The position numbers and the translations under genes are program-made. Below the pieces are notes generated by a model, which saw only the letters and a program-made list of their open reading frames with translations, was not told the DNA's origin and ran no database searches. A stretch of DNA of 32,737 nucleotides from a virus, in IMG/VR virus record IMGVR_UViG_3300027771_000055, positions 1-32,737 of that record. One strand, written 5' to 3'. Of this stretch, positions 112 through 27,624 are shown in pieces; position 1 is the first letter of the stretch, and each line of letters starts with the position of its first letter.

Positions 112-3100
112 ATGAACGATAACAGCTTTAATAATAACTCTGGCTACTCTAATAGTCCTGATGAAATGTTCAGTATTGGTGCCTCTGCAGACACTTCAGA
201 TAATGCCATGATGGCTAGAAACATGTTCACTACTGATGAAGCTCTAAGTAAGGACGCTAGATTAACTAAAGCCAAAGAGACTAAACTGTATGCTCTAACA
301 AAGTTAAATAACGGTGCTAACTTAGATAATTCCTATACAGAGCTTGAAGATGGTCGTGTAGAAAGCAACAAAAATAAAATATGGAATGACTTATCAGATA
401 ATGAATTTCAAAGTCTGCACGCATACGCACAAGCACAAAAATCATTAAGCCGTAATGGTGATAACACAACAGATGCTGAAGGTAATGCTTTTCTTGGACG
501 TACTAGACGCTTCTATGAATTTGGCAATAAAGTAGATGCCAGTGACGTAGTTAAATTAGGACTAGCTCGTGGTGATGCTCCAGATGCTACTGCAAGATAC
601 TTAGAATACCCTTCTGGTGAGATGGGTGTAAATATTGACAGACTAAACAGTGATGTTTTGTACTCTAATGATGTAGCTACCATGCTAGAAGGTGTTACAC
701 ATGGACGAAGACAAGCACTTTCTAACAGAGTAGTTAAAGATAGATATGCTGACCCATTCACTACAGACTTGCTAGGTGGAGGCTCATCTGAGTACTACAA
801 TAGTAGAGAAGGTGTATTTGGTGCACAAACTGAAGTAGATATGGGTATAGGTGCTAAGTTATTTGAAGAATACATGGCAAAATTACCTGATAAGTACCAA
901 AACTACGCAAGTAGAAGAACTGCCGCAAGTAAGCCACTATCTAAGCCTAACTCATTAGTAAATGCTGCTGCAGGATTTGGTGCAACTTTTGTAAATGAGC
1001 TAATTGTAAACCCATTAGACGCATTAGGTGATGCAACTGGTTTATACGACTTAGGTACTGAAGAAGAAAAAACAGAAAGTACTAATAACTTATTTGGTTA
1101 TGATGACAGAGCTGCAGCTGAATCAATAGAGAAGATTGGTGAACACTGGGATGTTGTCTCAGACAGTAACCAATCAGGCCTTACAAGAGCTAAAGCGGCA
1201 GCTGAAGGTATGTTAGAAGCTTTCACAACACCAGAAATGCTTGGTACCAGTTTAGGTGCATTAATGGCATGGGTTGCCCCTGGTGGAGTACTTGCAAAGA
1301 TTGGTGTAGGTACGAAGTACGCTTTAGGTGTGCAAAAAATAGATGCAGCAGTAAAGGCCGGAGAAATTACCAGAGCTGTAGGAAAAACGCAAAAAGCAAA
1401 AGCATTACTATCAATTGATGGAGCTAAAGCATTTGTCACAGCACAAGCAGGTTTTATTGCGTCATCAGCCGGTAATGTTAATAACCAGTATGAGCAATTT
1501 GTTGAACACAACAATGGTGTAGGTCTTACTGGTGAAGATAAGGCTAAGTGGTTTGCAGGTAGATTTGCAGTACAGATGGTTAATCAAAACCTTGATAAGA
1601 TAGTAGATTTTAACGTAATGAAATCACCTGGTGTGTTTCAAGCGTTAGTTCCTGCCGTTAAAGCCATGACTGAAAAAGAATTTGGTAACGTAGTTAAAAC
1701 TATGGCTAAAGGTGTGGCCAAAACTTCATTATCAGCCGGTTCCGAAGCAGTACAGGAATACACTCAGACAACTATGGAGTTATTCAACTCTAGATTCGGT
1801 TCTGAACAGTTTAAAGACTTAGACACGTTTACTAAGTTTTTATCAGACAGTGGTAACATTCGTGAAGGTGGTATTGCATCACTAGCTGGTGCAGGTGGTT
1901 CAGGACAGTTTGAGTTCGTTGGTGCTTTAGGAAGTGCTGTTAAAGATGTAAAATTTAAAGGTAATGAAGAGTACACTCCAGAGTCAGAAGAAGGCGTTAA
2001 TGAAGTTTCTACAGTAGCTGAAACTCAAAAGTCTTTCGCTTCAGACAATAAACAAAAACACCCTGTTGCTTCATATTATGCAGCACAAGCCAGTAATGAC
2101 ACAGATGCTAAAGCTGAAGCAAAATCATACTCAGATAATGTAAGGGACACCTTACTTGATGGAAGTAGTACTGTATTCCGTTCTGATAAACCTACATCAA
2201 TTGAAGATGTTTCCCGAATGGTTGAAGTAGCTATTTCAGGGAACCCAGAGCAAGATTATACTACGTTAAAAAATGCTATAAAATCTACAATGGAGTCTAG
2301 AGGTGAAACTTTTACTGAAGTAGAAGCTAAACAGCTAGATAATGCACGTAAAAAAGGTGTAATAACTGCTCGTGTTAAAAACATGCTTGAAGTTGCAGAT
2401 GAAGTATCTGCTGGTCTTGGTGGATTCACTACGTACTACGCAGCAGCTAAGGCAGCTGAGAATATTGGAGATGTTAAAGCACAAACAGAAAATATAAGTA
2501 AACTGTCATCTTTCATGCAGTATGAAGGTGAAAAAGCAGCAAGAATTAAGTCTAAACTTGAAGAAGTTGAAGGACTTGTAATGTCTGAAGCACAGGTGCT
2601 AGTAGACAATAAGAAAGCATCAGATATTAATGAAGCTTTACGTATGAAAGGTGTGGAGTACGGAAAGAAAGATGGCAGAGTAACTACTGTTAAAAATGCT
2701 GATAAAGTAGGCGCTAAGACAACTGAAATAAGCCATTACTCAGTAGCACTTAAACTTAGAACACAGGATTCACAGAAACCATTTGCTGGTGATATCTACA
2801 ATTTACTAACAACTATCAACAACGAAGTTGATGAGATGGGTAAAGTATATAGTCAACTGTTCGAAGTCTCACAGGAACAAACTACTACTACACCAGTTGT
2901 TGAAAGTTCTGAAGCTGTTGTAGAGCAAGTTAATAGTGTAACTTTCCCTGATGATGTTCAAGGATGGTTAGACAGTAACACTGAAAATCCTTACGCTAAA
3001 ATGGTAGCTGCACGTACTGCAGATAGTACTATAACTAAAGACCAAGCAAATAAGGCTATAAATAACGTAAGAGGGCGCATAGAAAGAGAAGCAGCTAAAG

Positions 3101-6100
3101 CACCAACTCCTGCACCGGTTAAAGAACCAGAAACTGCTACATCTGCCATTGTTCCTACTACTCCTGACGCTGTAACTGCCGCACGTAATGCTTTAGGTGG
3201 TAAAACTGGTGTATTAGCTGACAAAATGCGTGATGCTGTTGGCAATATATGGAGCAGAATGCAGACAGTAGGTGTTGGTACTAATACTGAAACATTTGAA
3301 GGTATAGTAAAAGAGGAAACAGAGAACCTCGATGAGTTGGCAGTAAAAACACTTAACTCAGTACTAAGCCGTATAAGTAAACTACAAGAACCTACTCCAG
3401 TAGTTGAAGAAGTAGTTGAGCCTACTGCTGTTGAAGGTGAACATACAGATGAATCCCTTGCGGCAATGCTTAGAGAAGCTGATGGTGATTACTCAGATGA
3501 CACCAGTTTCAGTGATGATAGCTTTAGCAACCCTACAGAGTCTAGTCTGGAAGACGAGCTTTCTGCTGCAAACTTTGATAACGAAGCTTTAATGGATGAG
3601 TTTGAAGCATTTACAAATGACAACACAGGTTTTGACGATGAGAATCTAAGTTTTAGTAATGATGATATGGATGACACTTTTATTGACACAGATAAAGTGT
3701 TTGATGGGGTCACATTAGATTTTGAAACGTTCAAGGAATTTAGAAAAAGACCTGAACGCAAAGTGGAAGAAAAACTTGAAGAAGTAGAACGACTACAAAA
3801 TATTAAAGAAGAACTTCAGTCAATAAATGCTGAAATATCAGAGCACAGAGACTACCTTAGAGGTTTACCTGAGTTCAAAAATCAAAAAGAAACACCAGAC
3901 AGTGAGCTTAATCGTCTTATGACTATTAAAAAGCTTATTACTAACGACCTGGAGTCATTTGAAAATAGTACACAAGACCATATCAGTGACAGACTTACTA
4001 TGTTTCGTGATGGCACATTTACTAAAAGTAAACTTACATTGTTTAAGCACTGGGTAGGTAAGAATGTTACTGAGCAGAAATACACGCTAAAAGACATATT
4101 TTCTGGTCACACTGTTACAGGTTTTAATGTGCAGAAAGAAACTAGTGAAAGTGTACTTCCTGAGACAGCTGCTTATGGAGAACGATTAAAGGCTACTGTC
4201 CCTGTTGAAGGCTCAGGGTACTTTAATGGTATAGAACGTAGTATTACAGGATTCTTGCTATACGGTAAAGATGGTGAACTTAACTACAACACAGTTCAAG
4301 CCATGCATGCCTCTGTTAATGACTATGTGCTAAGAAACTCTGAAAACCTTTATGGTGCTACTAGAGACACTGAGGAATACGCTAAAATTTTAGGTGTTAG
4401 TGAAGAGGATATTACACCAGATGACATGATGGCACTTATGCAAGGTGGTGTCACTTTGAGGTTGGCTGCATCAGAGGTAGGTAAAACTATAATAAAGAAC
4501 CTTGGAATCAGGTCTAGTACCATAGCTATACAAAATGCATTAGCTACACATTTAGGTATTGCTGCTATACAAGGCTCAGTTGGGCATGATGGCCATGGTA
4601 TGTATAACGAAGTTCTAACCAGAACAAGAACAGGACAAAAAGCAACAAACATAAATCTTATTAAGGGCGATGACACACTTATGGGTACTCTCGGTACTAT
4701 GAGTGATACTAATAAGTCTATAGAAGAAAGATTGAAGGTTGAGGTAAACACTAAAAAGACTTACAGAAAATCCAAGAAAGCTGAGCCTCGTAAAGTACAG
4801 CTTAGAAACGCTGAGTATCTTAATGCACCTAAAGACCATACAGACGTGGTTAATAGGCTTGAAAATACAGCGTTTAAGTTTAACAGTGGTAAAGACACGT
4901 TATTTGAAATATTTAGTGATGGTAATAACGGTTTAGATAAAGAAGCCTTAATGGATAAGATTATAGGCTCAGAAACTGAAGCAAGAAACAAAGATGATGC
5001 TGACAGCTATGGAGCACAAAGAATAGCGTTAAAACGTAGTCTTGATAACTTCACAGAGTCTGTTGATGATGTAGGTGATGCAGAGATATTTTTTGATTGG
5101 TTCATAGCAAGAAATCACCGTATACATTTAGATAGTAGTGGTATAAACCCTCAAGGAGATAAGCAGATTGCTAGGTGGTTGCTTACTGCCTCAGGAGTGT
5201 CAGTAGATATAAATAAAGACCTTATTGAATCTGTAGTTAATGGTGAACATGAAGGAGACATGTCTCATGAAGTTATGGTTGCTAAGACGTTTGCTTACTC
5301 TATCGTTCAAGCATTCGATGGAGCAGATGACATACCTGGAGTAGATAAAGACACTGAGAGTGTAATACTTGATAAAGCTAAACAACTTCTTGACCGTACA
5401 TACACAGAAGAAGAAATGTTTGGTATGGCCAAGAGTTCTAGATTAGCTCATGTTGGGCATGCAGCACTAGCTATTGCCAACATACGCAAGTTTAAGGACG
5501 ATAAAGGCGTACTTACATCTGATATGGTTATAGAAGTAGACGGATTAACTAATGGTTTTGCTTTTAGAGCAATGCAGTACCCAGTAGGTTCAGCAAAATA
5601 CACCAAGGAGTGGTTAGAAAAAGTAGGTGTAATAGACGCTGAAAATAGTAATGTAGGTACTAAAGATGGTAAACCTTTATCAGAACTAAAAAGTATGAAT
5701 GACGCAAGAACTACCGGTTTAGAAGATGTTTACATATCTACCGGTAAAGTTATGGGTACCAATATTGATGCTGTTAAGTCTGACATAGTAATTAAGTCAA
5801 AAGGTGCTAAATTTGATGAGGAGTCTGAAGCTGAGGTAGAGCAGGCTAAACAAGACATATCATGGATAAACTTGTTCGAAAAACATAAGAAGCTTCCTGA
5901 TTTTTCTGCTGGATTTGATGGTGTTACTAATGAGTCTAAAGATTTACTAAAATTCATAAGAAACCTTATGAAAAACCCTGTAATGATATTTGGTTACGCC
6001 GCTGGTATTAAGAGCATAGTAGCCGGTCTTGTTAATGACCAATTACTAGGTAGAAACTATTTATCTGGTAAAGGTTTGGTTTCCTATTTAACAGCTATAG

Positions 6101-7194
6101 ACCCTGATACAGAAGACTACTATGTACCTGAAGCAGAGTTAAAAAAATTGTTTAAGGTTAAAGGTGAGTCATATCACCAAGCTAGAATAAATCTTATGAA
6201 TGATAGCTTAATGTCTAAGACAGACGGCAGCATTATAGAACTAAGACAGGACTTACAAGCAGCTATTACAGCACTATATGCTGAACCTTTAGAGAATACT
6301 CTTACAGAGTTGTTCAGTGAACAGACAAAGGTAAATGCTGCGCTAATACAAGCTGGTGAGTTCCTATTTAAGTATTTCGATGAAGCTTATCAAAAGCACA
6401 TAGCCAGAAACCCTCATATAACTGAAGAAGGTAAAACTGAGTGGTTAAAGACTTTTGCAACTATTATTCCAGGCATTGCAGGAGCCAGCTCTACAGACCA
6501 GAGAACGAAATTAGCGTTCCTTAAAAATGTTTTAGATAACACAGGTGATGATGTAAGAGTGAAACTACTGGGCAGGGAAGAGCTTAGTGGTAATACAGTA
6601 ACTCGTGGATATGGTGAACCTGGGGTAGGTCCAGCAGTATTGACAATACTATCGTTAGACTCATCTAATTTGGCCATGTCTATTAATGAGTTCTATAAAG
6701 ACAATGACTACGCTGATGTTGTTCCTGTGCATGATGCAATGGTATTCGGAGTAGGTGCTTATGGACTGGCGAAACAGTACAGTAAGGATTTTTATCTTAC
6801 GAATAAGAGATACTCTATAGTTGAAGAGTTTAATAATGCTATAAATGCTATGGAAATCAGACTTGGTGATAATGCAAAAACGTTTAGTATAAAAGGATTT
6901 GATGACGATGTAAGCTTTGCAGCGATGAAGAGTAATTTGCAGACTACAGTGAATACAGTCCGTAAAGGTCGTGAAGAACTGTACGCTAAAAAACTAAATA
7001 TAGGTCAAATGGTACATCTTGAAATGTACACAGCTGACCCTAAACAGGATAAGATAGCAGCCACTGAGTACATAAAAGAACTGTCAGGAAGAATTTCTAA
7101 ACTTATGAAAGACCCTGATTTGAAGAAAGCACTAGGTACAAAATACCGTACTCACAAAAAACATTTAGAAACTATGTTAAAAGGTTGTAAATAA
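112..7194 (+). CDS. N4-type virion RNA polymerase
   Basis: Giant single-subunit DNA-dependent RNA polymerase, probably packaged in the particle and injected to transcribe early genes. The C-terminal half shows the T7-like motifs in order: an INPQG block after R1670 (like T7 FNPQG), motif A with D1810 (DGLTNG), motif B R1950-x3-K1954-x7-Y1962 followed by A-A-G, and motif C H2207-D2208-A. The two catalytic aspartates are 398 residues apart, close to the N4 mini-vRNAP spacing (D559/D951). The first 1000 or so residues contain Gly/Ala-rich hydrophobic stretches (about 280-305, 376-400, 440-460), helical segments, and an acidic linker at about 1098-1205. At 2360 residues it is shorter than N4 gp50 (about 3500). 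The ATG has a good ribosome-binding site. First gene of a three-gene operon; its TAA overlaps the next ATG (TAATG). Catalytic assignment is strong; packaging is inferred from the family. Confidence 0.9.
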   Translation: MNDNSFNNNSGYSNSPDEMFSIGASADTSDNAMMARNMFTTDEALSKDARLTKAKETKLYALTKLNNGANLDNSYTELEDGRVESNKNKIWNDLSDNEFQSLHAYAQAQKSLSRNGDNTTDAEGNAFLGRTRRFYEFGNKVDASDVVKLGLARGDAPDATARYLEYPSGEMGVNIDRLNSDVLYSNDVATMLEGVTHGRRQALSNRVVKDRYADPFTTDLLGGGSSEYYNSREGVFGAQTEVDMGIGAKLFEEYMAKLPDKYQNYASRRTAASKPLSKPNSLVNAAAGFGATFVNELIVNPLDALGDATGLYDLGTEEEKTESTNNLFGYDDRAAAESIEKIGEHWDVVSDSNQSGLTRAKAAAEGMLEAFTTPEMLGTSLGALMAWVAPGGVLAKIGVGTKYALGVQKIDAAVKAGEITRAVGKTQKAKALLSIDGAKAFVTAQAGFIASSAGNVNNQYEQFVEHNNGVGLTGEDKAKWFAGRFAVQMVNQNLDKIVDFNVMKSPGVFQALVPAVKAMTEKEFGNVVKTMAKGVAKTSLSAGSEAVQEYTQTTMELFNSRFGSEQFKDLDTFTKFLSDSGNIREGGIASLAGAGGSGQFEFVGALGSAVKDVKFKGNEEYTPESEEGVNEVSTVAETQKSFASDNKQKHPVASYYAAQASNDTDAKAEAKSYSDNVRDTLLDGSSTVFRSDKPTSIEDVSRMVEVAISGNPEQDYTTLKNAIKSTMESRGETFTEVEAKQLDNARKKGVITARVKNMLEVADEVSAGLGGFTTYYAAAKAAENIGDVKAQTENISKLSSFMQYEGEKAARIKSKLEEVEGLVMSEAQVLVDNKKASDINEALRMKGVEYGKKDGRVTTVKNADKVGAKTTEISHYSVALKLRTQDSQKPFAGDIYNLLTTINNEVDEMGKVYSQLFEVSQEQTTTTPVVESSEAVVEQVNSVTFPDDVQGWLDSNTENPYAKMVAARTADSTITKDQANKAINNVRGRIEREAAKAPTPAPVKEPETATSAIVPTTPDAVTAARNALGGKTGVLADKMRDAVGNIWSRMQTVGVGTNTETFEGIVKEETENLDELAVKTLNSVLSRISKLQEPTPVVEEVVEPTAVEGEHTDESLAAMLREADGDYSDDTSFSDDSFSNPTESSLEDELSAANFDNEALMDEFEAFTNDNTGFDDENLSFSNDDMDDTFIDTDKVFDGVTLDFETFKEFRKRPERKVEEKLEEVERLQNIKEELQSINAEISEHRDYLRGLPEFKNQKETPDSELNRLMTIKKLITNDLESFENSTQDHISDRLTMFRDGTFTKSKLTLFKHWVGKNVTEQKYTLKDIFSGHTVTGFNVQKETSESVLPETAAYGERLKATVPVEGSGYFNGIERSITGFLLYGKDGELNYNTVQAMHASVNDYVLRNSENLYGATRDTEEYAKILGVSEEDITPDDMMALMQGGVTLRLAASEVGKTIIKNLGIRSSTIAIQNALATHLGIAAIQGSVGHDGHGMYNEVLTRTRTGQKATNINLIKGDDTLMGTLGTMSDTNKSIEERLKVEVNTKKTYRKSKKAEPRKVQLRNAEYLNAPKDHTDVVNRLENTAFKFNSGKDTLFEIFSDGNNGLDKEALMDKIIGSETEARNKDDADSYGAQRIALKRSLDNFTESVDDVGDAEIFFDWFIARNHRIHLDSSGINPQGDKQIARWLLTASGVSVDINKDLIESVVNGEHEGDMSHEVMVAKTFAYSIVQAFDGADDIPGVDKDTESVILDKAKQLLDRTYTEEEMFGMAKSSRLAHVGHAALAIANIRKFKDDKGVLTSDMVIEVDGLTNGFAFRAMQYPVGSAKYTKEWLEKVGVIDAENSNVGTKDGKPLSELKSMNDARTTGLEDVYISTGKVMGTNIDAVKSDIVIKSKGAKFDEESEAEVEQAKQDISWINLFEKHKKLPDFSAGFDGVTNESKDLLKFIRNLMKNPVMIFGYAAGIKSIVAGLVNDQLLGRNYLSGKGLVSYLTAIDPDTEDYYVPEAELKKLFKVKGESYHQARINLMNDSLMSKTDGSIIELRQDLQAAITALYAEPLENTLTELFSEQTKVNAALIQAGEFLFKYFDEAYQKHIARNPHITEEGKTEWLKTFATIIPGIAGASSTDQRTKLAFLKNVLDNTGDDVRVKLLGREELSGNTVTRGYGEPGVGPAVLTILSLDSSNLAMSINEFYKDNDYADVVPVHDAMVFGVGAYGLAKQYSKDFYLTNKRYSIVEEFNNAINAMEIRLGDNAKTFSIKGFDDDVSFAAMKSNLQTTVNTVRKGREELYAKKLNIGQMVHLEMYTADPKQDKIAATEYIKELSGRISKLMKDPDLKKALGTKYRTHKKHLETMLKGCK

Positions 7195-10133
7195 TGAAGT
7201 CTTGTAATTTAGTAAGTGCGGTAATCTACTTAGAAAACCTACATAGCCAGCTGTTGACGGAAGGTAATGCAACAGCATCAAATCTTCTTGATAGCGTAGT
7301 TACAGAAATAAAAGAAGCTAGAAGTGACATTGTAAATAATTCTGCACTTGCTGGAGCTGTTCCTGTAAACATATATGATAAGTTTGCTGAAGCATTTAAA
7401 CCTGTAAATGTCGGTACTAATCCAAAGAATAGTCCACCAAAACAGAAGGCAGAACCTACTTATGAAACAGTAGCTGGGTTTACTCTTGGAGAAGTTAAGT
7501 CTGTTGAGATGTCAGAATTACTTGATTTAGTTGGTGAAATATCTGCGTATGCTGATAGTAATAGACCTGATGTTGTAACAAATAGCAGTACTAAAAACTA
7601 CACTGATACCATAACCAGACTACTAAAAGCTTATGTAGGTGATTCTGGTAATCGTGTAAAAGTAAGATTAGTAAGTAATGTTACTGCTACTGAGATTGAC
7701 AACACTACAGGCAAGAAAGTAAGTAGAGAAGCCTTAGGTAAATATAATAATGGTACGGGAATACTTACTTTAGCATTAAACCCTAACAGAGAAAACTTAA
7801 GTAAGGCTTCATTAGCAATAACTACCAGTAAAGTAATACTACACGAGCTTGTGCACGCTATGACAGTTAGTGTATTAAAAGATGATGTAGTGCTTAATAA
7901 CAGGATTGAAAACCTAAGAAAACATGCAGTAGAGATGTATAAAAAAGCTAATGGTAAAGAGCCTAGCTACGCTCCTGGTTCTGATACTTATGGACTTAAA
8001 AACAGTAAAGAGTTTGTAGCCGAAGTAGTTACTGGATACAAATTGCAAAAACTACTGGCTGGTATGTCTCCTACTAGAGCTAAGACTATAATTGAAAGAG
8101 TTAAAGCACTATTCAAAGAAATAATAGCTAAAATTAAGTCAAACATGGGCATAGACCCAGATAGCTACACTCTTCTTGATGAAGCTATAGAAGCTACGGA
8201 CTCCGCCATAAAACGTGGGATTGACCCACTTCTTGGAAGGGAGCAGGAAGTGGTAGATGCTATATTAGATGGCAACAACCTGGATGAACAAAAAGCTACG
8301 TTATCGGCAAGCAGTGGGCAGGAAGTTACAAACACCGTAAATGAGCCTTCTAGGTTATCAGACTCTGAAATCAGTAAAATGGTGCAGGAATCCTTAGATA
8401 CATCCAAAGAGCTGTTAGCCAGAACAGACATAGTTATGGCTGAAGCAAAGGTTGCAAGGGATGAAGCCGCTAAACTTATTGCAGCACCACTAGCAGATAA
8501 TAGCAATAGCATTAGTGATGAAGGTTATAGATTTACCAAAGACGGTGAAGAATTAACTACGAATGAAGGTCAGACTATAGCCATAGATGCCATGAAAGAG
8601 TGGTATAAAGCAGATGATAAGACTAAGCCTCATTTCTTGTTACAAGGTAGAGGTGGAACAGGTAAAACTACTGTTATAAACGTTCTTATGGATGAGTTGA
8701 ATGTTAAGACAAAAGACATAATGTTTGCTACACCTACTCACAAAGCTTTAAAAGTTATTAAAGAAAGTAACAGAGGTAACAAGTACAGAGCAAGTAAGTA
8801 CAAGACATTAGCATCATTACTAGAAGTAAAACCGAAACAGGACAAACGAGGTAACATTGTAACTTTTGAAAAAGAGTGGGATGCAGATGATGTTGTTATG
8901 CCTAAGGTACTTGTTGTTGATGAGGCATCAATGGTTCATAGTATGAACTACGATATGTTAATTGAAGAAGCTGCAATGGCAGGTACGAGAATTGTGTTTA
9001 TGGGTGACCATGCACAATTAGCACCTGTAAAAGACGCAAGAGCAAGAGTGAAATCTGTGGTATTTGGTGAATTAGATAACTCTACAGTTCACCTAAATCA
9101 GCTTATGAGACAGGCTGAAGGTTCACCTATTATATTGTTTACAGATGCTCTTATAAACATAGTTAATGCTGTAGAAACTATGACTGAAGAAGGTGAGTTT
9201 TCTGCTGTGGAAGCAAATCAACGACTTAGAGCAACTACTTTTGATAGTAGTATGTTTACAAGAATTGATGAAGAAACAGGTGAAGGTGTAGCTCTTACTA
9301 CTGAGGCATTCGATGAAATATTCCCGCAGTTTATGCGTGACTATGAAGCTGACCCTGTTAACACTAAATACATCCATTTCAATAACCATGTGCATGATGA
9401 CACCGTAGCTATAACTGCAAGAATAAGAGAAAAATTATTTGGTGATAGAGCTTTATCTGAACCTTATATTAAAGGTGAACCATTAATATTAAACGCTCCT
9501 ACGTCACAGATGTCTAAACCTCCTGGAGATATATCTAGGATGGAGACTTTAGATAATGGTGAAGAGTTCACAGTAATAGACTACGAGATAGACAATAATA
9601 CCCACGTAGATTACTTTATAGGTAGAACTAAAAGAACTACTGTTGGCGCTATACCTATGTATAAGATACGTGCTGAAGACACTATAAACGGTGCTACTGT
9701 TACTTTCTTAAAACCTGTAAATAATGCAGATGTAGAAAGACTTATTGACGAAGAATCTAAAGTAATGCCTAAAGGAAAAGAATTTCATGCAGGAAGAGTT
9801 AGAGCATTTCTAGCAACCGGTCTTGGACTTGGTTATGTAATAAATGGCCACAAATCACAAGGAAGTACATACAATACTGTCTACATGGATATAGGTAATA
9901 TTATAGGACAATATGACGATTATGTTTCTGCTAATGATAAAATAAAATCAGCGTATGTTGGAGGTTCTAGGCCCAGAAAACGTTTAGTGGTTATAGACAA
10001 TCGTACTAATAATAGTACAATAATAAACAGTAAAAAATTACCAATCACAAATAGTGTTTTCGCAAACGTAAATACAGTTGAAGCTACCAAAATGGCTGAA
10101 GATATAACAGATTGTAAAGGAACAGGGGTATAG
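7194..10133 (+). CDS. Zincin-like peptidase / SF1 helicase fusion
   Basis: Two-domain giant protein of 979 residues. The N-terminal part has a zinc-metallopeptidase signature H217-E-L-V-H221 followed by a likely third ligand in E273-F-V-A-E277. The C-terminal part is a RecD/Dda-type superfamily 1 DNA helicase: Walker A GRGGTGKT (485-492, K491), Walker B VLVVDEAS (D576/E577), and a late motif GHKSQGST starting at 885 that is typical of the RecD/TraI C-terminal fold. The mix matches the polyvalent proteins of phages and conjugative elements, which enter the host with the DNA. It starts inside the stop of the polymerase gene (TAATG), so it is probably translationally coupled and made with it. 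Whether it is packaged, and whether the peptidase is active, cannot be seen. The helicase call is firm; the peptidase call rests on motif spacing. Confidence 0.82.
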   Translation: MKSCNLVSAVIYLENLHSQLLTEGNATASNLLDSVVTEIKEARSDIVNNSALAGAVPVNIYDKFAEAFKPVNVGTNPKNSPPKQKAEPTYETVAGFTLGEVKSVEMSELLDLVGEISAYADSNRPDVVTNSSTKNYTDTITRLLKAYVGDSGNRVKVRLVSNVTATEIDNTTGKKVSREALGKYNNGTGILTLALNPNRENLSKASLAITTSKVILHELVHAMTVSVLKDDVVLNNRIENLRKHAVEMYKKANGKEPSYAPGSDTYGLKNSKEFVAEVVTGYKLQKLLAGMSPTRAKTIIERVKALFKEIIAKIKSNMGIDPDSYTLLDEAIEATDSAIKRGIDPLLGREQEVVDAILDGNNLDEQKATLSASSGQEVTNTVNEPSRLSDSEISKMVQESLDTSKELLARTDIVMAEAKVARDEAAKLIAAPLADNSNSISDEGYRFTKDGEELTTNEGQTIAIDAMKEWYKADDKTKPHFLLQGRGGTGKTTVINVLMDELNVKTKDIMFATPTHKALKVIKESNRGNKYRASKYKTLASLLEVKPKQDKRGNIVTFEKEWDADDVVMPKVLVVDEASMVHSMNYDMLIEEAAMAGTRIVFMGDHAQLAPVKDARARVKSVVFGELDNSTVHLNQLMRQAEGSPIILFTDALINIVNAVETMTEEGEFSAVEANQRLRATTFDSSMFTRIDEETGEGVALTTEAFDEIFPQFMRDYEADPVNTKYIHFNNHVHDDTVAITARIREKLFGDRALSEPYIKGEPLILNAPTSQMSKPPGDISRMETLDNGEEFTVIDYEIDNNTHVDYFIGRTKRTTVGAIPMYKIRAEDTINGATVTFLKPVNNADVERLIDEESKVMPKGKEFHAGRVRAFLATGLGLGYVINGHKSQGSTYNTVYMDIGNIIGQYDDYVSANDKIKSAYVGGSRPRKRLVVIDNRTNNSTIINSKKLPITNSVFANVNTVEATKMAEDITDCKGTGV

Positions 10134-10134
10134 A

Positions 10135-13100
10135 ATGGCTTGTAGTATTGTAGGGTTAACTAACGGTTTAGATTCTGAAGATAAAGCAGCCAGTAGAGAG
10201 ACTATTAAAAAAGTACTCAATACAACTGCTGTTGAGAGGTCTGAAGCTACTTCTGGCCCTATACACCTAATTTCTAGGCTGATAACTGAGTCAAATCCAA
10301 AAATTGGTGGTGAGCAAGTACACCTTATTGATGTGTCTAGAGTTTCTGAAGGTAACTTTGTAGTTAAATATCGAGTAGGTGACAGCAAAGAAATTATTGA
10401 GACACCCCTAGGTTCTACCTCTCCATTTACTAATGAAAAGATGCCTGGTCTTCATGTTAATAATGATTCCATGGAGTCGTTGCATTCAGATTTTGAGTAT
10501 TCTCATAATCCTGATGACTTTGAAGCGTTGGCATTGGATATAACCAATAACCCAGAAAAGATACTAGAAGTTGCCCAGGACTTAATAGACGCTGATGAGT
10601 ACCATAATGATGCAAGTTATAACAGTGTACTGTTAACCCAAATCAGTAATATACAGGAAACCTTGATAGAGATGGTTCCTGAAGTAAATATTCATATAAA
10701 TAACCAAGCTGAAGGTAACTACGGTGAAATACATACTGATACAGGTAATGTGTTTATCAGTAAGGGTGTTGGAGGCTCTAAAAGCTTACTTGAGATATAC
10801 GCTCATGAGCTCTATCACGCAGTTACACATTTTGCCCTTAGTAGTAAGTCTACTGAGGTACGCAAGGTAACATCACGTATGGAGAAAGTCAGGGACAATT
10901 TCTTAAGTAATACAGAAGAAAAAGACCTTGTAAGAATGTCAGGAAATACGCTTACAGAAGCAGAAGCTACTGCGTTACTGGAGCATCTAACAGACCCTAA
11001 AGTAGGTCTGCATGAGTTTGTGGCTCTAGCTATGACAAATAAGGCTGTTTCATACCAGTTAGCTACGCTTAACATGACTGACAAGGAAGTGAAGGAAGAC
11101 AGAAACTTTTTAGAGCAGATTATGGATATGGTAGCTGAGCTATTCCATACCATTACTAAAAAAATTACAGGTGAACCTGATACTGATGACCTTAGCAGAA
11201 TGGTGTTCTTTGTAAATAAACTTAATACTGCACACAAAAAACCTCTAAGAGCTAAAAAATTAGTGTCTATACGCAATTTAATATCTATATTTGAACCTTT
11301 TGAGAAGAAGCTTTCAGACTACGCAGATAAGAAAATTGCAGAGAACACAAGTAAAATTGATAGGAATGAAGCTAAAGAAGGTGAGGGTAACTTGAAGTAT
11401 AACCTCAGACTTATGGCACGTTCATTTTTTGATGACCAAGCTAAGAATATACTAGGTTCTGCATCAAGTTTAGCATCACACAAAGGTGGTTTATTATCAT
11501 TCTTGTCACCTGAGGGCACTGTAAGAACCATAATGAGGGATGCATCACAGTCTGACCTTACACAGGACCAAGCAGAAGCTTTAGGATTATTATCTGGCCA
11601 TATAGACCAACGCCGTGAGTTCTTGGCCGTTCAACACTCAAAAGTAGTTGTAGATTATTTTGGTGTAAGACCTACTCTAGAGCAGGAAGAAATGCTTACT
11701 GATATGGTTTTGGACATAGATTTGTCTACTATATACGGTACATACGACATGGACAAACTACTTAGTAGTGACCTTGAAGTATCGGCTATGATAACCAAAA
11801 AGGAAAAGCAACTAGCTGAAAAAGTAGATAAGAAACATTCAAATTTTTATAGTGCTCAAACAGAAATTCTAGCCAACTACTTGGTAAAAGGTCAGGACAA
11901 TATAGCACTTTTACTGAATGCTAATAACATAGCAAAAATGGTTGGTACTAATAGTGAGATAGAATACGTAGATGGTAGCGTAGTTGCACTTATAGACGAA
12001 ATAGCCACGTTAAAGGCGCTTAAACTTAGTAGTAAGAAGAATAAGATAGCACTTAGAAGCCTTATAGAAGAAGAACCTGAAGGTGTCAGTAGTTTAGTAG
12101 CATTTCAGCAGGGGCAGAAATTACGCTCTGAAGAGGAGGTATTTCCTACAGCATCCGATAAACTTAAGATTATAAAAGGCTACTCAGTACAGATAACAGA
12201 CCCTGATGTCAGTATAGTTGCAGCACCAATGTCAAAACTTATGGAGATGAAGTCACAAGGGTATAATCTTGAAAAAGAACTCGGAAAGCATGAATCAGAT
12301 GATAACAAGACACCTATGGGATTGTTTATAAACCACAGATTTATGGATACCAGTTTTCACAGAGTAGGTATACGTCTTACAGAGAAAGCTAGAAGAGGTG
12401 TCACTATTACAGAAAGTTTCATGCACGGTACTGACGACCACAAACCACATAAAGCTGCGTTAGCTATCCTTAAACTTAGGAAACGAAAAGCAGATGTTGT
12501 TAACCAAATGCTTAATGGAACGTATAGTGTTGATGATGTGGCTGATGACAGTCTACTTACACCTACTCTGGATAACCTAGGTAAAGTAGTAGATTTCAGA
12601 TACGGCATGGACAAGGAAGGTAAGATTAAACACCTTGATATGGAAAGAAAAGTTAGTGTTGTTATGGGAAGAACAGCATCATCTTCATACGATAAGATGG
12701 CTAGTGACTCATTTAATCAACAGATGATGGATTTGATTATGGAAGACGCAGATGCTAATAAAAATAAAACTGGTATTATTGGTAAGAATTTTAAAGAGTA
12801 TATAAAAATAGAAAAGCACTCAGATAACAAAAGTATCTCAGCGTTATGGAGAGTATTACCAGAAAACATAAAAGTTAAGCATAAAGATGGGTTTTTTGTA
12901 AGACGTGATTTAATGTACACATATCTTGGGTACAGAGAAATGGGTGTAGACGATATTCTTGGTTTTGGTGTACTAAATAGCAATAGTGACTTTATGAAGC
13001 ACTTTAAGTATGTTTTAAAGTACGCAGAAAAACTGTGGCAGGAAATAGTAAAGATATCAAAAATAGATATTATTATACGTACACCTGGTGTGTTTATAGG

Positions 13101-13944
13101 AAATGTTATAAGTAATTTCATGCTTATGTACGTTAGTGGTTACTCGATGAAGGAAATTATTGAGTTAAAGTACCAAGGTATAAAAGAGTTAAAGTTGTAT
13201 ACTGATGGACTAAAAGAGTCTATTCAGTTGAGAGCTAAACAAGAAGCAGGGTTAATAAAGCCTAAAGAACTTAGACGTTTGAACGTTATAGAAAATAACT
13301 TATTGAACAGTCCTGTAAAGGACCTTGTTGATGAGGGTTTTTATACTACTATCGTAGAGGAAGTTGAGCATGGTGGAGATACTGGTAGTTACTTTAATAG
13401 GCTTGCTAAGAAGAAGCTTAAAAATGTACCTAAGATATTCAGGACTGGTTTAGATATATTATACATTACAGAAAATACTAAACTATTTAAGACTGTTGAA
13501 AAAGGTATACAAGCTTCAGATTTTGCAGCTCGATACGCCCAGTATCACTTGATGGTGGAAAATGGTTCAGATAAAGCTGATGCCATTAAAACTATAAGAG
13601 ACAACTTTATTGACTACAATAAACCTAATAGTAGGCTTGTTGAATGGGGTAATAAGAATGGTTTTGTAATGTTTACTAAGTACTTTACGCGTATTCAGCG
13701 TGTACTAAGAAACTACGGTGTTAGACATCCTGCCAAGATTGCTTTGTCTTTACTTGGTCAAGATTATGTACTTGGTGACATGGATGACATGACTGACCAA
13801 TCTATTTTAACTAAGGATATGGGTAACCTATTTTACAACCCGTTTGACCACCTAATGAGGGTGATAACTCCAACAGCTTTAGAAGCTGTCAAGGCTGTTC
13901 TTGATGGAGATATTAGTAATGAGGGTACAGAACTTAAACTCTAA
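10135..13944 (+). CDS. Polyvalent virion protein with zincin domain
   Basis: Large protein of 1269 residues. The N-terminal third holds a zinc-metallopeptidase motif H224-E-L-Y-H228-A-V-T, with a probable third ligand in H293-E294-F-V-A about 70 residues later. The arrangement closely resembles the same region of the preceding protein, so the domains look related. The C-terminal part (about 970-1230) is helical with a hydrophobic segment near 985-1000. A stretch around 1125-1210, with DNFIDY and later FTKYFTRIQR, resembles the large-polyvalent-protein LPD38-type region of phage internal proteins; I hold this only moderately. It begins 1 nt after the previous stop with AGGGG upstream, and is the last gene before a strong terminator. 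Probable role: internal, ejected virion protein. A structural non-ejected role is the main alternative. Confidence 0.72.
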   Translation: MACSIVGLTNGLDSEDKAASRETIKKVLNTTAVERSEATSGPIHLISRLITESNPKIGGEQVHLIDVSRVSEGNFVVKYRVGDSKEIIETPLGSTSPFTNEKMPGLHVNNDSMESLHSDFEYSHNPDDFEALALDITNNPEKILEVAQDLIDADEYHNDASYNSVLLTQISNIQETLIEMVPEVNIHINNQAEGNYGEIHTDTGNVFISKGVGGSKSLLEIYAHELYHAVTHFALSSKSTEVRKVTSRMEKVRDNFLSNTEEKDLVRMSGNTLTEAEATALLEHLTDPKVGLHEFVALAMTNKAVSYQLATLNMTDKEVKEDRNFLEQIMDMVAELFHTITKKITGEPDTDDLSRMVFFVNKLNTAHKKPLRAKKLVSIRNLISIFEPFEKKLSDYADKKIAENTSKIDRNEAKEGEGNLKYNLRLMARSFFDDQAKNILGSASSLASHKGGLLSFLSPEGTVRTIMRDASQSDLTQDQAEALGLLSGHIDQRREFLAVQHSKVVVDYFGVRPTLEQEEMLTDMVLDIDLSTIYGTYDMDKLLSSDLEVSAMITKKEKQLAEKVDKKHSNFYSAQTEILANYLVKGQDNIALLLNANNIAKMVGTNSEIEYVDGSVVALIDEIATLKALKLSSKKNKIALRSLIEEEPEGVSSLVAFQQGQKLRSEEEVFPTASDKLKIIKGYSVQITDPDVSIVAAPMSKLMEMKSQGYNLEKELGKHESDDNKTPMGLFINHRFMDTSFHRVGIRLTEKARRGVTITESFMHGTDDHKPHKAALAILKLRKRKADVVNQMLNGTYSVDDVADDSLLTPTLDNLGKVVDFRYGMDKEGKIKHLDMERKVSVVMGRTASSSYDKMASDSFNQQMMDLIMEDADANKNKTGIIGKNFKEYIKIEKHSDNKSISALWRVLPENIKVKHKDGFFVRRDLMYTYLGYREMGVDDILGFGVLNSNSDFMKHFKYVLKYAEKLWQEIVKISKIDIIIRTPGVFIGNVISNFMLMYVSGYSMKEIIELKYQGIKELKLYTDGLKESIQLRAKQEAGLIKPKELRRLNVIENNLLNSPVKDLVDEGFYTTIVEEVEHGGDTGSYFNRLAKKKLKNVPKIFRTGLDILYITENTKLFKTVEKGIQASDFAARYAQYHLMVENGSDKADAIKTIRDNFIDYNKPNSRLVEWGNKNGFVMFTKYFTRIQRVLRNYGVRHPAKIALSLLGQDYVLGDMDDMTDQSILTKDMGNLFYNPFDHLMRVITPTALEAVKAVLDGDISNEGTELKL

Positions 13945-13950
13945 GCCTAT

Positions 13951-13985
13951 ACCCTAATAGTACTAACAACACTGTTAGGGTTTTT
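13951..13985 (+). terminator. Strong intrinsic terminator of giant operon
   Basis: An 11-bp stem (13951-13961 with 13971-13981, one T-G wobble) and a 9-nt loop are followed by five Ts, starting 6 nt after the stop of the third giant gene. It separates the rightward operon from the converging leftward genes. The stop codon of the leftward membrane-protein gene lies inside the stem. No T run follows on the minus side, so it mainly acts rightward. Confidence 0.9.
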
Positions 13986-18558: not shown

Positions 18559-19355
18559 TAATCTTCCTTATTTCGCATGTCATGCCAGATTACGTGACGT
18601 AATTCTGGATATTTTTTAGATGCTTCAAGAGTTTCAGCACATAGATTCAACTGGTTTTCAATGAACTCTACATCTTCTTTGACGACTGTTTCTGTTAATA
18701 CAGTGACTTCAGGTGGGTAGGATTTGAGAGGTTTTCCAGTTTTTTCACTAAGACCTCCATCAATATTTCTATTGATATAGACTAAGCGAATTCTTGTTAC
18801 ATTATACCCTAATTTACGTAAAATCCATACGTAAACAAGCAGCTGATAACGGTAAATTGAGGTGATTGCCTTAGGCTTAGTCTTACTATTGTAAGTCTTA
18901 TAATCAACCAACATACAGTCTTCTTTAGTACCTTGAAGTAGGTCAAAAGTACCTGCTCCGTAGATTCCTTTAGCAACTGCTGCAGCTACTTGTCCCTCAA
19001 CTTCTAGGATAGTATTCTGCTCAGGTAATGTATAGGTATTAACAAGCTCTGCAGCCATGTTGTACCAATTTTCCTTCACCGTTTCCCTACAGTAATCATC
19101 GTTTTCTTTCATACTATCAATGTATTCTGCGATGATATATTCGTCTACTTCTTTATCAGAAGCTACTTGCTCAGCGACATAATGCACAATAGTGCCTATA
19201 ACGCTTGAAGTACTGTACTCGAACTTATCTAAGCCAAGTATCTGTTGTCTGTACCATGCCCATGGACGTTCTATAAACGTACCAAATGAACTTGGACTAA
19301 TTCTGACTTCACAGTCATCAGGTACCGTTGCCGGTACATATATTAATGGATTCAT
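18558..19355 (-). CDS. RecB/Cas4-like PD-(D/E)XK exonuclease
   Basis: A 265-residue nuclease with the full RecB-type motif set: RISPSSFGTFIERP near residue 18, G54-x3-H58, E118/E120, GTFD with D138, D151-Y-K153 (the catalytic D-x-K), and Q171-x3-Y175. It would resect DNA ends and feed the Sak4/SSB-like strand-annealing module. Cas4 iron-sulphur cysteines are not evident, so it is closer to a phage RecB-like exonuclease than to true Cas4. It starts within the stop of the polymerase gene (TAATG) and ends in the start of the Sak4 gene, a coupled three-gene chain. Confidence 0.88.
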   Translation of the reverse strand: MNPLIYVPATVPDDCEVRISPSSFGTFIERPWAWYRQQILGLDKFEYSTSSVIGTIVHYVAEQVASDKEVDEYIIAEYIDSMKENDDYCRETVKENWYNMAAELVNTYTLPEQNTILEVEGQVAAAVAKGIYGAGTFDLLQGTKEDCMLVDYKTYNSKTKPKAITSIYRYQLLVYVWILRKLGYNVTRIRLVYINRNIDGGLSEKTGKPLKSYPPEVTVLTETVVKEDVEFIENQLNLCAETLEASKKYPELRHVIWHDMRNKED

Positions 19356-21184
19356 TACTCTTCCTTTATTTGCTTAATAACATCTTCTATTTCTTCAACA
19401 GAAGCGTCATTAACAATCTTATGCAAATCAGCCCAATTACGGCCTAATTCACCCTCAGCTTCATTCTTAACTACTTGGTCTGTGATGTAATCCACACATA
19501 GAAGTTCTACTGCGTTATCATTCAGCCACTTAATAGTCTCAGCGTTATCTTCAACGTAGATATATAAACTATCGTAGATTGTAGAGCACACTTCTATCCT
19601 TCCTCTATAACCGGCTTCTTCAACACGGTAATTAAGTTCATTGATAGTAATCTGAGTTAAAATACTCCAGAACTGACAAGTAGCATTATTCAATGTACGA
19701 ATATCGCCTTCTGGGTCATCAGAGTAGATTCTACAACCTAAACCTAAATGAAGGTAACCATTAGCTATCGTAGTAGGAAGTACATACTCTTCTCGGTACT
19801 TAGTGATACCTGGATATAAATTGTTATGGTAGTTATCAAATATCTCTTTAGTAATAACACCACCTTTATCTGCGTCAGGAAATCCACCATAGGCAAGTTT
19901 AAATGTAGGAGCTTTAGAAGCTGAACGTATCTTACCTATAACAGGATGTTTCTCAACATCAGCTAACCGGTAAAATTCTTTAACATAGGCTACGTTATCT
20001 GTATTAGGTCCCATCACTTCTGCAATCTTTTCAGGAAAGTAACCACAAGCATTCAGTGAATGCCCATCTAACCCTTCTAAAAATATATTAGATTTGTTTA
20101 CGTCACCAGATAAATTAGCTATAACTCTATCTTCTAGTGCACCCAAATCTATCGCGTATATAAGCATGCCTTCAGGAGCTATAAAACACTTCTTTAAAGG
20201 CTTTGCGTAGATAGACTTAGTACTTGGCATATTAAGCAAATTAGGGCTATTAGATGTAGGTCTGAATGACTTAGCACCAAATATTTTTATGTTACCGTGT
20301 AGTACGCCGTCAATCGTGTAAGTATCGAAAGCTTTAAGAAAGTTATTACGAATAATCCCACTAAATGAGTGGTCAATGATACATTGCAAAACTTCATCGT
20401 AAGCTTCGTCAGAATGGTCAGACTGTTTTAACAGTATCTCAATGTACTCTCTTCCCCATGAACCATCACCTGATGTCTCTGAGACAGCCAGAGGCTCAAT
20501 ATTAAGCATGGCAAATAACTCTTGCTTCTGCTTGGCTGACCCTGGGTTAAAAGGGTCTAAACTAGCCTTAGATTTGGCCTTATCATAACGAGGTCTATTC
20601 CATAGCTCTACTTTATGTTCGGCTAACGCAATCATACCAATAGCAACAGTTTCAGATTTTTTTGCAATAGACTTATCAAGAACTTTTGCTATAAAATCAT
20701 CTTCTTTAAAGCTGTTATAAGCTTTCAAATCTTTTACTGGCCAAGTTTCTTTTATGTCTTTTTCACAATCTGCAGATTTAAGGTAGGTATTAACTACCCA
20801 CGTTCTGTGAAGCATGCTCGATTCATCATAATCACGTAAGTAATGGCCGATATCCCTAACTGCTTCAGTACTTTTAGCGATATGTACTTTCTGAGCTACT
20901 ACAGCTCTCTGTTCTTGGTATTTTTGTATAACTGAGTTACGTAACAATAACGCATCAACATTACTCAATACTTCATCAATAGTTGACCGTAAAGCTTCTA
21001 CCGCATCATTATCAATATAAAGACCGGCACACATCAACCTAATAGCATCTTCAATTAGAGGATGTACGAAGTTGTCGTGAAAGAACTCTGGGCCTAAGTC
21101 CAGCTCTGCCGGTTTGGGAAGTGGCAACCTAGTCCACGGCCTTAACCCTTTTGCATTAATACGTTCTTCTAATGTTAAGGTCAT
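19355..21184 (-). CDS. Family A DNA polymerase (polymerase domain)
   Basis: A 609-residue Pol I-type replicative polymerase. Thumb-like FNPGS (212-216) leads to an R308-x2-SNSPNLLNMP block, motif A D346-L-G-A-L-E-D-R, motif B R420-x3-K424-x3-F428-x3-Y432-G, and motif C Y537-D538-S. Motif C has Tyr where His is usual, and motif A has L-G-A-L in place of the common YSQIE. There is no recognisable 3'-5' exonuclease motif in the first 200 residues; a separate DEDDy exonuclease is encoded at 26956-27624 and may supply proofreading. AGGAG sits 7 nt before the ATG. First gene of a TAATG-coupled chain with nuclease and Sak4. Confidence 0.92.
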   Translation of the reverse strand: MTLTLEERINAKGLRPWTRLPLPKPAELDLGPEFFHDNFVHPLIEDAIRLMCAGLYIDNDAVEALRSTIDEVLSNVDALLLRNSVIQKYQEQRAVVAQKVHIAKSTEAVRDIGHYLRDYDESSMLHRTWVVNTYLKSADCEKDIKETWPVKDLKAYNSFKEDDFIAKVLDKSIAKKSETVAIGMIALAEHKVELWNRPRYDKAKSKASLDPFNPGSAKQKQELFAMLNIEPLAVSETSGDGSWGREYIEILLKQSDHSDEAYDEVLQCIIDHSFSGIIRNNFLKAFDTYTIDGVLHGNIKIFGAKSFRPTSNSPNLLNMPSTKSIYAKPLKKCFIAPEGMLIYAIDLGALEDRVIANLSGDVNKSNIFLEGLDGHSLNACGYFPEKIAEVMGPNTDNVAYVKEFYRLADVEKHPVIGKIRSASKAPTFKLAYGGFPDADKGGVITKEIFDNYHNNLYPGITKYREEYVLPTTIANGYLHLGLGCRIYSDDPEGDIRTLNNATCQFWSILTQITINELNYRVEEAGYRGRIEVCSTIYDSLYIYVEDNAETIKWLNDNAVELLCVDYITDQVVKNEAEGELGRNWADLHKIVNDASVEEIEDVIKQIKEE

Positions 21185-26654: not shown

Positions 26655-26963
26655 TTATTTATACTTTTCAATAATGGCTAAACATATAGCCATTTGAGGG
26701 TCAGAATGGTCTTCACCTCTACAATGTGACCACATACCTACGTACTCATTTTTACCATTACGAGATAGTTTTATATCATGTTTAAGCATTAAGTCCCAAC
26801 ATAGCGCTTTGTCTGTTAGTGGGTTAAACTTGTGCCAAGTTAGTGTAGGAGGACCAACTTCAGAGTACTCAGTAACTATGTACGAGCTGCCAAGTTTAGG
26901 ATGCAAACTCCACTCTAAATCACCTATTTCAGCTATCTTTTTACATATTTCTAAATTAGTCAC
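26655..26963 (-). CDS. NinX/ABA-sandwich-like phage protein
   Basis: A 102-residue protein with FNPLTDKALCWDLMLKHDIKLS in the middle and DPQMAICLAIIEKYK at the end. The FNP-L-D...W-(D/E)LMxxHDIxL and C-terminal AICLAI pattern is typical of short phage proteins related to NinX (DUF2591) or the phage ABA-sandwich domain; function unknown. It starts at GTG with GGAG 7 nt upstream, inside the last codons of the exonuclease gene (8-nt overlap). It converges with the plus-strand mini-gene. Confidence 0.7.
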   Translation of the reverse strand: MTNLEICKKIAEIGDLEWSLHPKLGSSYIVTEYSEVGPPTLTWHKFNPLTDKALCWDLMLKHDIKLSRNGKNEYVGMWSHCRGEDHSDPQMAICLAIIEKYK

Positions 26964-27624
26964 TATTAAGCTCCTCTAGAATTAGTTCGTACAAATAGAA
27001 TGTAGCTCCGCCATCTATTGCACAGTAAAGTAGGAAATCTTTATCCTTTAAATCTCTTGGTTCGTAGTCATTCATTAATGACCACTTACCAGGGTAGTAC
27101 CCACCCATTATCACTTTAAGACCGGTCTTAGCTTTCCAAATGTTTACATGGTTAATTAGACATTTAGACAGTAATGCTGTATCCACGAAGTTCTTAGGCA
27201 ACCTTTTTATTCGTTCATACATAATCTTCAAATCGAATAATGAGTTATGTACCAGTAGCTTACCTTCATAGTCAGCTACTAGTTTCCACATGTGGAGTTC
27301 CATCGCAGCATCCGTACATATTACTACATGGGCCTTATCCCTACTCTCACCAAAGATGAAGTGGGTAGTTTTTACTATTGACGGAAAACTTAACCCACTA
27401 GATTCTGCTACAACTCTGGCTTGCTTATAAAGCTCATCACGAGTGTCAGCTTCTTTTAAGTAATCAGATGCTTCTTTACGCAATTTGCCTTCGTACACAG
27501 AACGAACTTCAGTATCAAAAGATAGTATTTTTAACCTTTCAAGAAGTTTAGGTATGTGTTTTCTTATTTTGTACTCTGATGCATATACTGTGTAGTCCAC
27601 ATGTATAATATCGTCTTGTAGCAT
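26956..27624 (-). CDS. Stand-alone 3'-5' exonuclease (DEDDy)
   Basis: A 222-residue exonuclease of the DnaQ/Pol I proofreading type. Exo I is LSFD37-T-E39, Exo II is VHN127-x2-FD131, D148-T lies between, and Exo III is Y200-C-A-I-D204-x3-T. These are the DEDDy residues that bind two metals and remove mispaired 3' ends. In most Pol I-type phage polymerases this domain is N-terminal in the same chain; here the polymerase at 19355-21184 lacks it, so this is probably its detached proofreading subunit. Alternatives are a stand-alone RNase T/D-like nuclease. AGGG lies upstream of the ATG. Confidence 0.85.
   Translation of the reverse strand: MLQDDIIHVDYTVYASEYKIRKHIPKLLERLKILSFDTEVRSVYEGKLRKEASDYLKEADTRDELYKQARVVAESSGLSFPSIVKTTHFIFGESRDKAHVVICTDAAMELHMWKLVADYEGKLLVHNSLFDLKIMYERIKRLPKNFVDTALLSKCLINHVNIWKAKTGLKVIMGGYYPGKWSLMNDYEPRDLKDKDFLLYCAIDGGATFYLYELILEELNSD

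Follow-up and report, generated by a model that had tools for sequence, protein, structure and literature searches.

In the window, a viral DNA stretch of 32,737 nucleotides, three ORFs follow one another on the plus strand: gene 1 at 112..7194, gene 2 at 7194..10133 and gene 3 at 10135..13944, encoding proteins of 2360, 979 and 1269 residues, respectively. The end of gene 1 and the start of gene 2 share 1 nt (TAATG), and a 1-nt gap separates genes 2 and 3; positions, sizes and spacing are exactly those given in the initial annotation. A purine-rich stretch is present 5' of all three starts (AGGA, AAAAGG and AGGGG). Behind gene 3 we noticed by eye a hairpin formed by CCCTAATAGT and ACTGTTAGGG with a 10-bp stem and a 9-nt loop, followed by T5 (13952..13985, plus strand), which is a likely terminator. 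A terminator shared by the three genes, as had been proposed, is therefore plausible on inspection, but the terminator scan lent it no support: the hairpin was not listed because its 9-nt loop would be missed at the loop limit of 8. Another hairpin with a T-run, also recognized by eye, lies at about 1-27 ahead of gene 1. The neighboring genes on the minus strand look like an N4-like replication module comprising a ligase, an SSB, a Sak4-like ATPase, a nuclease, a DNA polymerase and a primase. A megablast search of the locus against phages gave zero matches.

The motifs A (EVDGLTNG, 5533..5556), B (RNLMKNPVMIFGY, 5959..5997) and C (VPVHDA, 6721..6738) of single-subunit polymerases are all found on the plus strand in gene 1, and the three motifs are likewise present in nearly all relatives. 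Motif A follows the ExDGxxxG pattern named in PMC10654107. Searching the PDB sequences with a profile of the polymerase domain did not retrieve N4 at the sequence level, so a comparison of folds was needed. An AlphaFold2 model of residues 1330-2295 (4099..6996, plus strand), built from 17 sequences, reached a pLDDT of 78.5. Its best fold match in the PDB is the N4 mini-vRNAP 3c3l (E 9e-19, TMq 0.64); N4 vRNAP structures occupy ranks 1-10 and are followed by mitochondrial and T7 polymerases. Protein 1 is identified as the N-terminal domain and polymerase of an N4-type virion RNA polymerase (vRNAP).

Protein 3 aligns with its residues 217-1237 to positions 2343-3388 of the 3406 positions of phrog_2206 (virion RNA polymerase, E 6e-131), and its family profile aligns to residues 2455-3388 of N4 gp50 (E about 1e-46). 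A motif search located HELYH at residues 224-228 (10804..10818, plus strand), and an HExxH motif is also present in the C1 subdomain of the N4 vRNAP (PMC12633501). By sequence similarity, protein 3 is assigned as the C-terminal domain of an N4-type vRNAP (C1 with HExxH, and C2) made as a separate protein.

Protein 2 combines an HExxH domain, with HELVH at residues 217-221 (7842..7856, plus strand, motif search), and a helicase region at residues 455-940 (8556..10013, plus strand), which was delimited by profiles and a structure match. The helicase matches comprise phrog_325 (E 3e-69), Pfam AAA_30 (E 3e-22) and the T4 Dda structure 3upu (E 2e-11). The profile match spans the helicase core, and both Walker A (GRGGTGKT, 8646..8669, plus strand, within the helicase region) and DEAS motifs are present, which assigns the region to the Dda-like SF1 type. 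Matches of protein 2 in PADLOC turned out to be generic helicase matches and were dismissed. The HExxH domain strongly matches the middle protein of locus L014 (94.5%) and weakly the C1 subdomain of N4 and PG11 (4.8%); BLAST against the HExxH region of L034, a relative discussed below, gave E 0.004. A structure model of protein 2 had a mean pLDDT of 42 and was unusable. The helicase core of protein 2 is like that of T4 Dda/RecD2-type SF1 helicases, from which the protein differs by its added HExxH domain, its cysteine-free interior and its place in a vRNAP operon. These domain identities agree with the earlier description of an N4-like vRNAP, a helicase with a peptidase motif and a protein with a peptidase motif in one operon. 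Proteases directed against host defence or serving to free the proteins, which had also been suggested, found no support in the analysis.

Taken together, the operon encodes a single N4-type vRNAP that is divided after the polymerase and ahead of the C-terminal domain, and the helicase protein occupies the site of division. In the N4 vRNAP a flexible linker (residues 2102-2123) joins polymerase and C-terminal domain (PMC12633501). The window proteins share with N4 gp50 (Schitoviridae) the order of N-terminal domain, single-subunit polymerase, C1 with HExxH and C2, as well as motifs A, B and C, the fold and a chain interior free of cysteines. They differ from it by the added helicase protein, by one cysteine per junction end and by being made as three chains with separate starts and stops rather than as a single polypeptide (about 3,500 residues); we therefore class the window vRNAP as a split variant and not as an ordinary N4-type vRNAP. 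The same domain order is found in the fused giant L034, a chain of at least 4,632 aa with zero cysteines, onto which protein 1 maps at 1815-2523, the HExxH region of protein 2 at 2738-2887, its helicase at 2893-3419 and protein 3 at 3548-4630. L036 likewise contains the helicase inside a single cysteine-free vRNAP chain. Because protein 3 turns out to be the C-terminal domain of the vRNAP itself, and all three proteins align in order along L034, the earlier view of a shortened polymerase followed by independent polyvalent proteins is not upheld. The gene-order comparison among relatives that had been recommended recovers the three-gene order in L005, L009 and L010, but shows it fused in L034. 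The AD45 phages and many contigs have a two-gene split form, and this recurrence of the split order in other contigs and phages rules out an assembly artefact as its cause. The vRNAP of Alteromonas phage AD45-P1 (Efbeekayvirus) consists of two ORFs cut at the same place, with C2493 of 2495 residues and C4 at the two ends; unlike the window it has no middle helicase protein, and it is annotated as a potential frameshift. In PMC10654107 the two ORFs were guessed to result from a gene-calling mistake or read-through and were then joined.

The distribution of cysteines in the three chains follows the cuts. The only cysteine among the 2360 residues of protein 1 is the second-last residue, Cys2359 (TGT, 7186..7188), the two cysteines of protein 2 are Cys4 (7203..7205) and Cys974 (10113..10115), and the only one in protein 3 is Cys3 (10141..10143), all codons being on the plus strand. 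The other window proteins counted contain 66 cysteines in 4,631 residues (1.4%). This confinement of all cysteines to junction ends was not mentioned in the initial annotation.

We gathered relatives from IMG/VR and obtained a split set of 24 loci with 54 chains and 88,872 residues. Apparent exceptions that traced back to over-long starts (L006/L030, L089, L131, L134 and crAss002 gp33) were either read again beginning at an internal Met or excluded. Exactly one cysteine is located within 8 residues of the end at 60/60 junction ends, which are not independent of each other since they probably all trace back to a single ancient split, and at none of the 41 complete non-junction ends. Beyond the junction ends, a single cysteine was found in the whole set, in L114. 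Cysteines are absent from the fused relatives (about 3,000 to 6,000 residues) with few exceptions, and these look like over-long starts (L089 and L131) or a doubtful ORF (L057); the vRNAPs of N4, PG11 and PT15-A5 are cysteine-free. Several papers connect the lack of cysteines in N4-type vRNAPs with their transit across the tail or the oxidising periplasm (PMC3715699, PMC2784036, PMC3915230). One cysteine per end is also seen in three different types of middle protein: protein 2, a 408-aa HExxH protein in L014 and a protein of about 640 aa in L114. Apart from the cysteines, chain ends vary freely.

In a maximum-likelihood tree the split forms group together in a single clade (SH-aLRT 100), and the only fused member, L068, falls within it. 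The alignment of L068 shows a deletion that took out the junction together with both cysteines; as they went in one deletion, the loss of the cysteines is not separate evidence. Middle proteins are located at three separate places of the tree (the window group, L014 and L114), with both cysteines in each. Both TGT and TGC are used at the junctions, the spacing from codon to codon ranges from 10 to 41 nt and the gap from -11 to +26 nt, and it is therefore the residue that is conserved and not a nucleotide signal. A junction signal at the nucleotide level was ruled out, given that codons, spacing and frames vary and that one of the crAss001 chains has its gene on the other strand. A split intein or trans-splicing was also rejected, as no more than 5 residues follow the upstream cysteine and no more than 5 precede the downstream one, so that intein halves would not fit. 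The three-ORF vRNAP of pSb-1 was considered as a further case and dismissed: its break lies inside a domain and no junction cysteine is present in the two pieces read fully, which is consistent with frameshifts.

A parallel case is found in crass-type phages, whose virion RNA polymerase belongs to another class than the N4-type enzyme. Here too a giant virion polymerase is divided into two or three chains with a terminal cysteine at each junction end; the phages belong to another order, and some of the chains, unlike those of the N4-type split, contain internal cysteines. In crAss001 the polymerase chains show C2339 of 2341 residues (gp47), C5 and C2404 of 2412 (gp50) and C5 (gp49), gp47 being encoded on the strand opposite to gp50 and gp49. 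In phi14:2 they show C1797 of 1797 (gp67), C3 and C2179 of 2180 with no other cysteine (gp66) and C3 (gp65). DAC15, cr111 and L133-L135 follow the same rule. Where chains are fused, cysteines are kept only at the remaining junction, as in p-crAss gp45/gp44, FpV4 gp32/gp33, crAss002 gp32/gp33 (read from Met33), cr118 gp14/gp15, cr55 gp70/gp71, cr109 gp53/gp52 and cr52 gp34/gp35. In total, 42/42 junction ends have a cysteine in 14 genomes, four of which are close relatives. The cysteine-free body is relaxed, with one to about ten internal cysteines in some chains including catalytic ones. The crass-type rule represents an independent parallel to the N4-type split. Mass spectrometry has identified crAss001 gp47, gp50 and gp49 as virion cargo, and disulfides were seen in the tail of the crAss001 virion (PMC10172136), which makes an oxidised virion realistic. 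The same work appears to have included reduced as well as non-reduced samples.

We consider it likely that the operon specifies one vRNAP made as three chains, which would be joined by disulfides in the virion and separated by reduction in the host. Its products would most likely be an injected set. Tight coupling of the genes should yield similar amounts of the three chains. As in fused vRNAPs, their interiors would be kept free of cysteines to allow them to traverse a narrow tail and an oxidising periplasm. In the mature virion, head-to-tail disulfides C2359-C4 and C974-C3 would restore a continuous train of about 4,600 residues to be ejected as a unit. As the chains would be made and packaged in a reducing cytoplasm, the bonds would have to form later; a search for a thioredoxin in the 32.7-kb window fragment found none. 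Upon ejection the reducing host cytoplasm would cut the disulfides. The N4 polymerase is inhibited by its C-terminal domain and both form a tight complex (PMC12633501); reduction would accordingly free the polymerase from this domain, and it would also release the helicase, which could open the template for a polymerase preferring single-stranded DNA. In broader terms, we lean towards regarding the terminal cysteines as a general coupling device in convergent use in two phage orders with unrelated polymerases. The train would be assembled outside the reducing cytoplasm and taken apart on arrival, the redox state itself triggering release and activation, and cysteine-tipped middle modules (peptidase, peptidase-helicase) could be plugged into it.

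One thiol per end would fit other functions as well, namely docking to the portal or an ejection protein, joint metal binding or dimers of like with like, and a lone terminal cysteine is sometimes seen in other cargo such as p-crAss gp47, FpV4 gp30 and T7 gp14, where it is residue 2. However, the cysteines flank every junction and are absent from the 41 complete outer ends, the middle protein has one at both ends, and fusion removes the pair. In addition, the co-ejected N4 proteins gp51 and gp52 are cysteine-free, as are the gp51/gp52-like neighbors looked at in split loci; T7 gp15 and gp16 have none either. We regard such other functions as unlikely.

Dda-like helicases are usually replication proteins, and no further replicative helicase gene was recognized among the fragment proteins scanned. 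Protein 1 could be injected alone, with proteins 2 and 3 acting as an ordinary intracellular helicase and peptidase that merely share its operon. This is very unlikely, as the C-terminal domain of the vRNAP is protein 3 itself, L034 and L036 carry the helicase within one cysteine-free vRNAP chain, and protein 2 has cysteines at its ends only, unlike the other window proteins with their 66 cysteines. It is hardly credible that the split itself is an artefact of sequencing frameshifts or is bypassed by read-through or frameshifting into one chain. Such an explanation was suggested for AD45-P1 and pSb-1 (PMC10654107), and pSb-1 does resemble a case of frameshifts, but in more than 20 independent contigs the cut falls at nearly the same point and the pieces open with new ATG codons. 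Overlaps and gaps from -11 to +26 nt, different frames, matched terminal cysteines and the purine-rich stretches ahead of the window starts also speak against it.

In the open-licence literature we found no report of terminal or junction cysteines in vRNAPs or crass cargo, an absence that is not proof, and the cysteine rule appears to be undescribed so far. It suggests a novel mode of linking ejected proteins, in which a virion polymerase can be reassembled through disulfides and switched by the cytoplasm of the host. The cysteine-free N4 vRNAP, a known curiosity, thereby becomes a rule with meaningful exceptions, and this rule offers a cheap and concrete test of the ordered threading of giant proteins through a tail channel of about 35 angstroms. 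The lineage has been overlooked: candidate vRNAPs below 2,500 residues were discarded in PMC10654107, a cut-off that would exclude the 2,360-residue polymerase of the window. If the coupling holds true in crAss-like phages, the device would be at work in viruses that rank among the most abundant in the human gut.

The rule of one cysteine at each chain end facing another chain was examined in crAss-like phages, which belong to another order and carry another polymerase class (loci L042, L132-L142 and L144-L147). In the virion RNA polymerase chains of 14 genomes of this type a terminal cysteine was found on all such junction ends (42/42). Fused chains carry no such cysteine at the position of the junction that has disappeared.

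Lone terminal cysteines were seen in other virion proteins, which are cargo or internal proteins: p-crAss gp47 (L137:35141-37714) has a single one at residue 856 of 857, FpV4 gp30 (L139:9854-11650) at residue 5 and T7 gp14 (L143:1729-2319) at residue 2.

Among the N4-type virion RNA polymerases (vRNAPs), two fused giants of at least 5,952 residues (L036:2-17860) and at least 4,632 residues (L034:1325-15220) both contain a helicase core and no cysteine at all; they exceed every vRNAP size named in the literature surveyed. The fused vRNAP at L068:3980-13405 is likewise free of cysteine and is placed inside the split clade by the tree, an apparent re-fusion through a deletion spanning the junction.

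The two vRNAP ORFs of AD45-P1 (L002:10624-22348) are labelled as a potential frameshift in the public record NC_021532 and no protein is given, so that a genuine split pair is absent from protein databases. At L028:3068-9497 the N-terminal domain and the polymerase lie in different frames; the break is without cysteine and looks like a sequencing indel and not an additional split. An in-frame TGA at L076:1105-1107, within the polymerase domain shortly upstream of motif C, may be an error of sequencing, a recoded stop or the sign of a gene that is broken.

In the window, separate genes seem to encode the polymerase and the exonuclease: a family A DNA polymerase of 609 aa (19355-21184, minus strand) and a protein of 222 aa (26956-27624, minus strand) matching the exonuclease part of a polymerase profile.

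The proteins encoded at the split cut between polymerase and C-terminal domain in loci L114 (7517-9442, ~640 aa) and L014 (8292-9518, 408 aa) both carry an HExxH motif and are cysteine-tipped. Different proteins thus share one position, which resembles an insertion point for exchangeable modules. In crAss-like phages the 4,946 aa polymerase chain cr118_1 gp14 (L144:11382-26222) includes a Dda-like helicase domain resembling protein 2, the HExxH and helicase protein of the window (tblastn E 3e-14); the joining of a helicase to a virion polymerase is therefore found in both orders.
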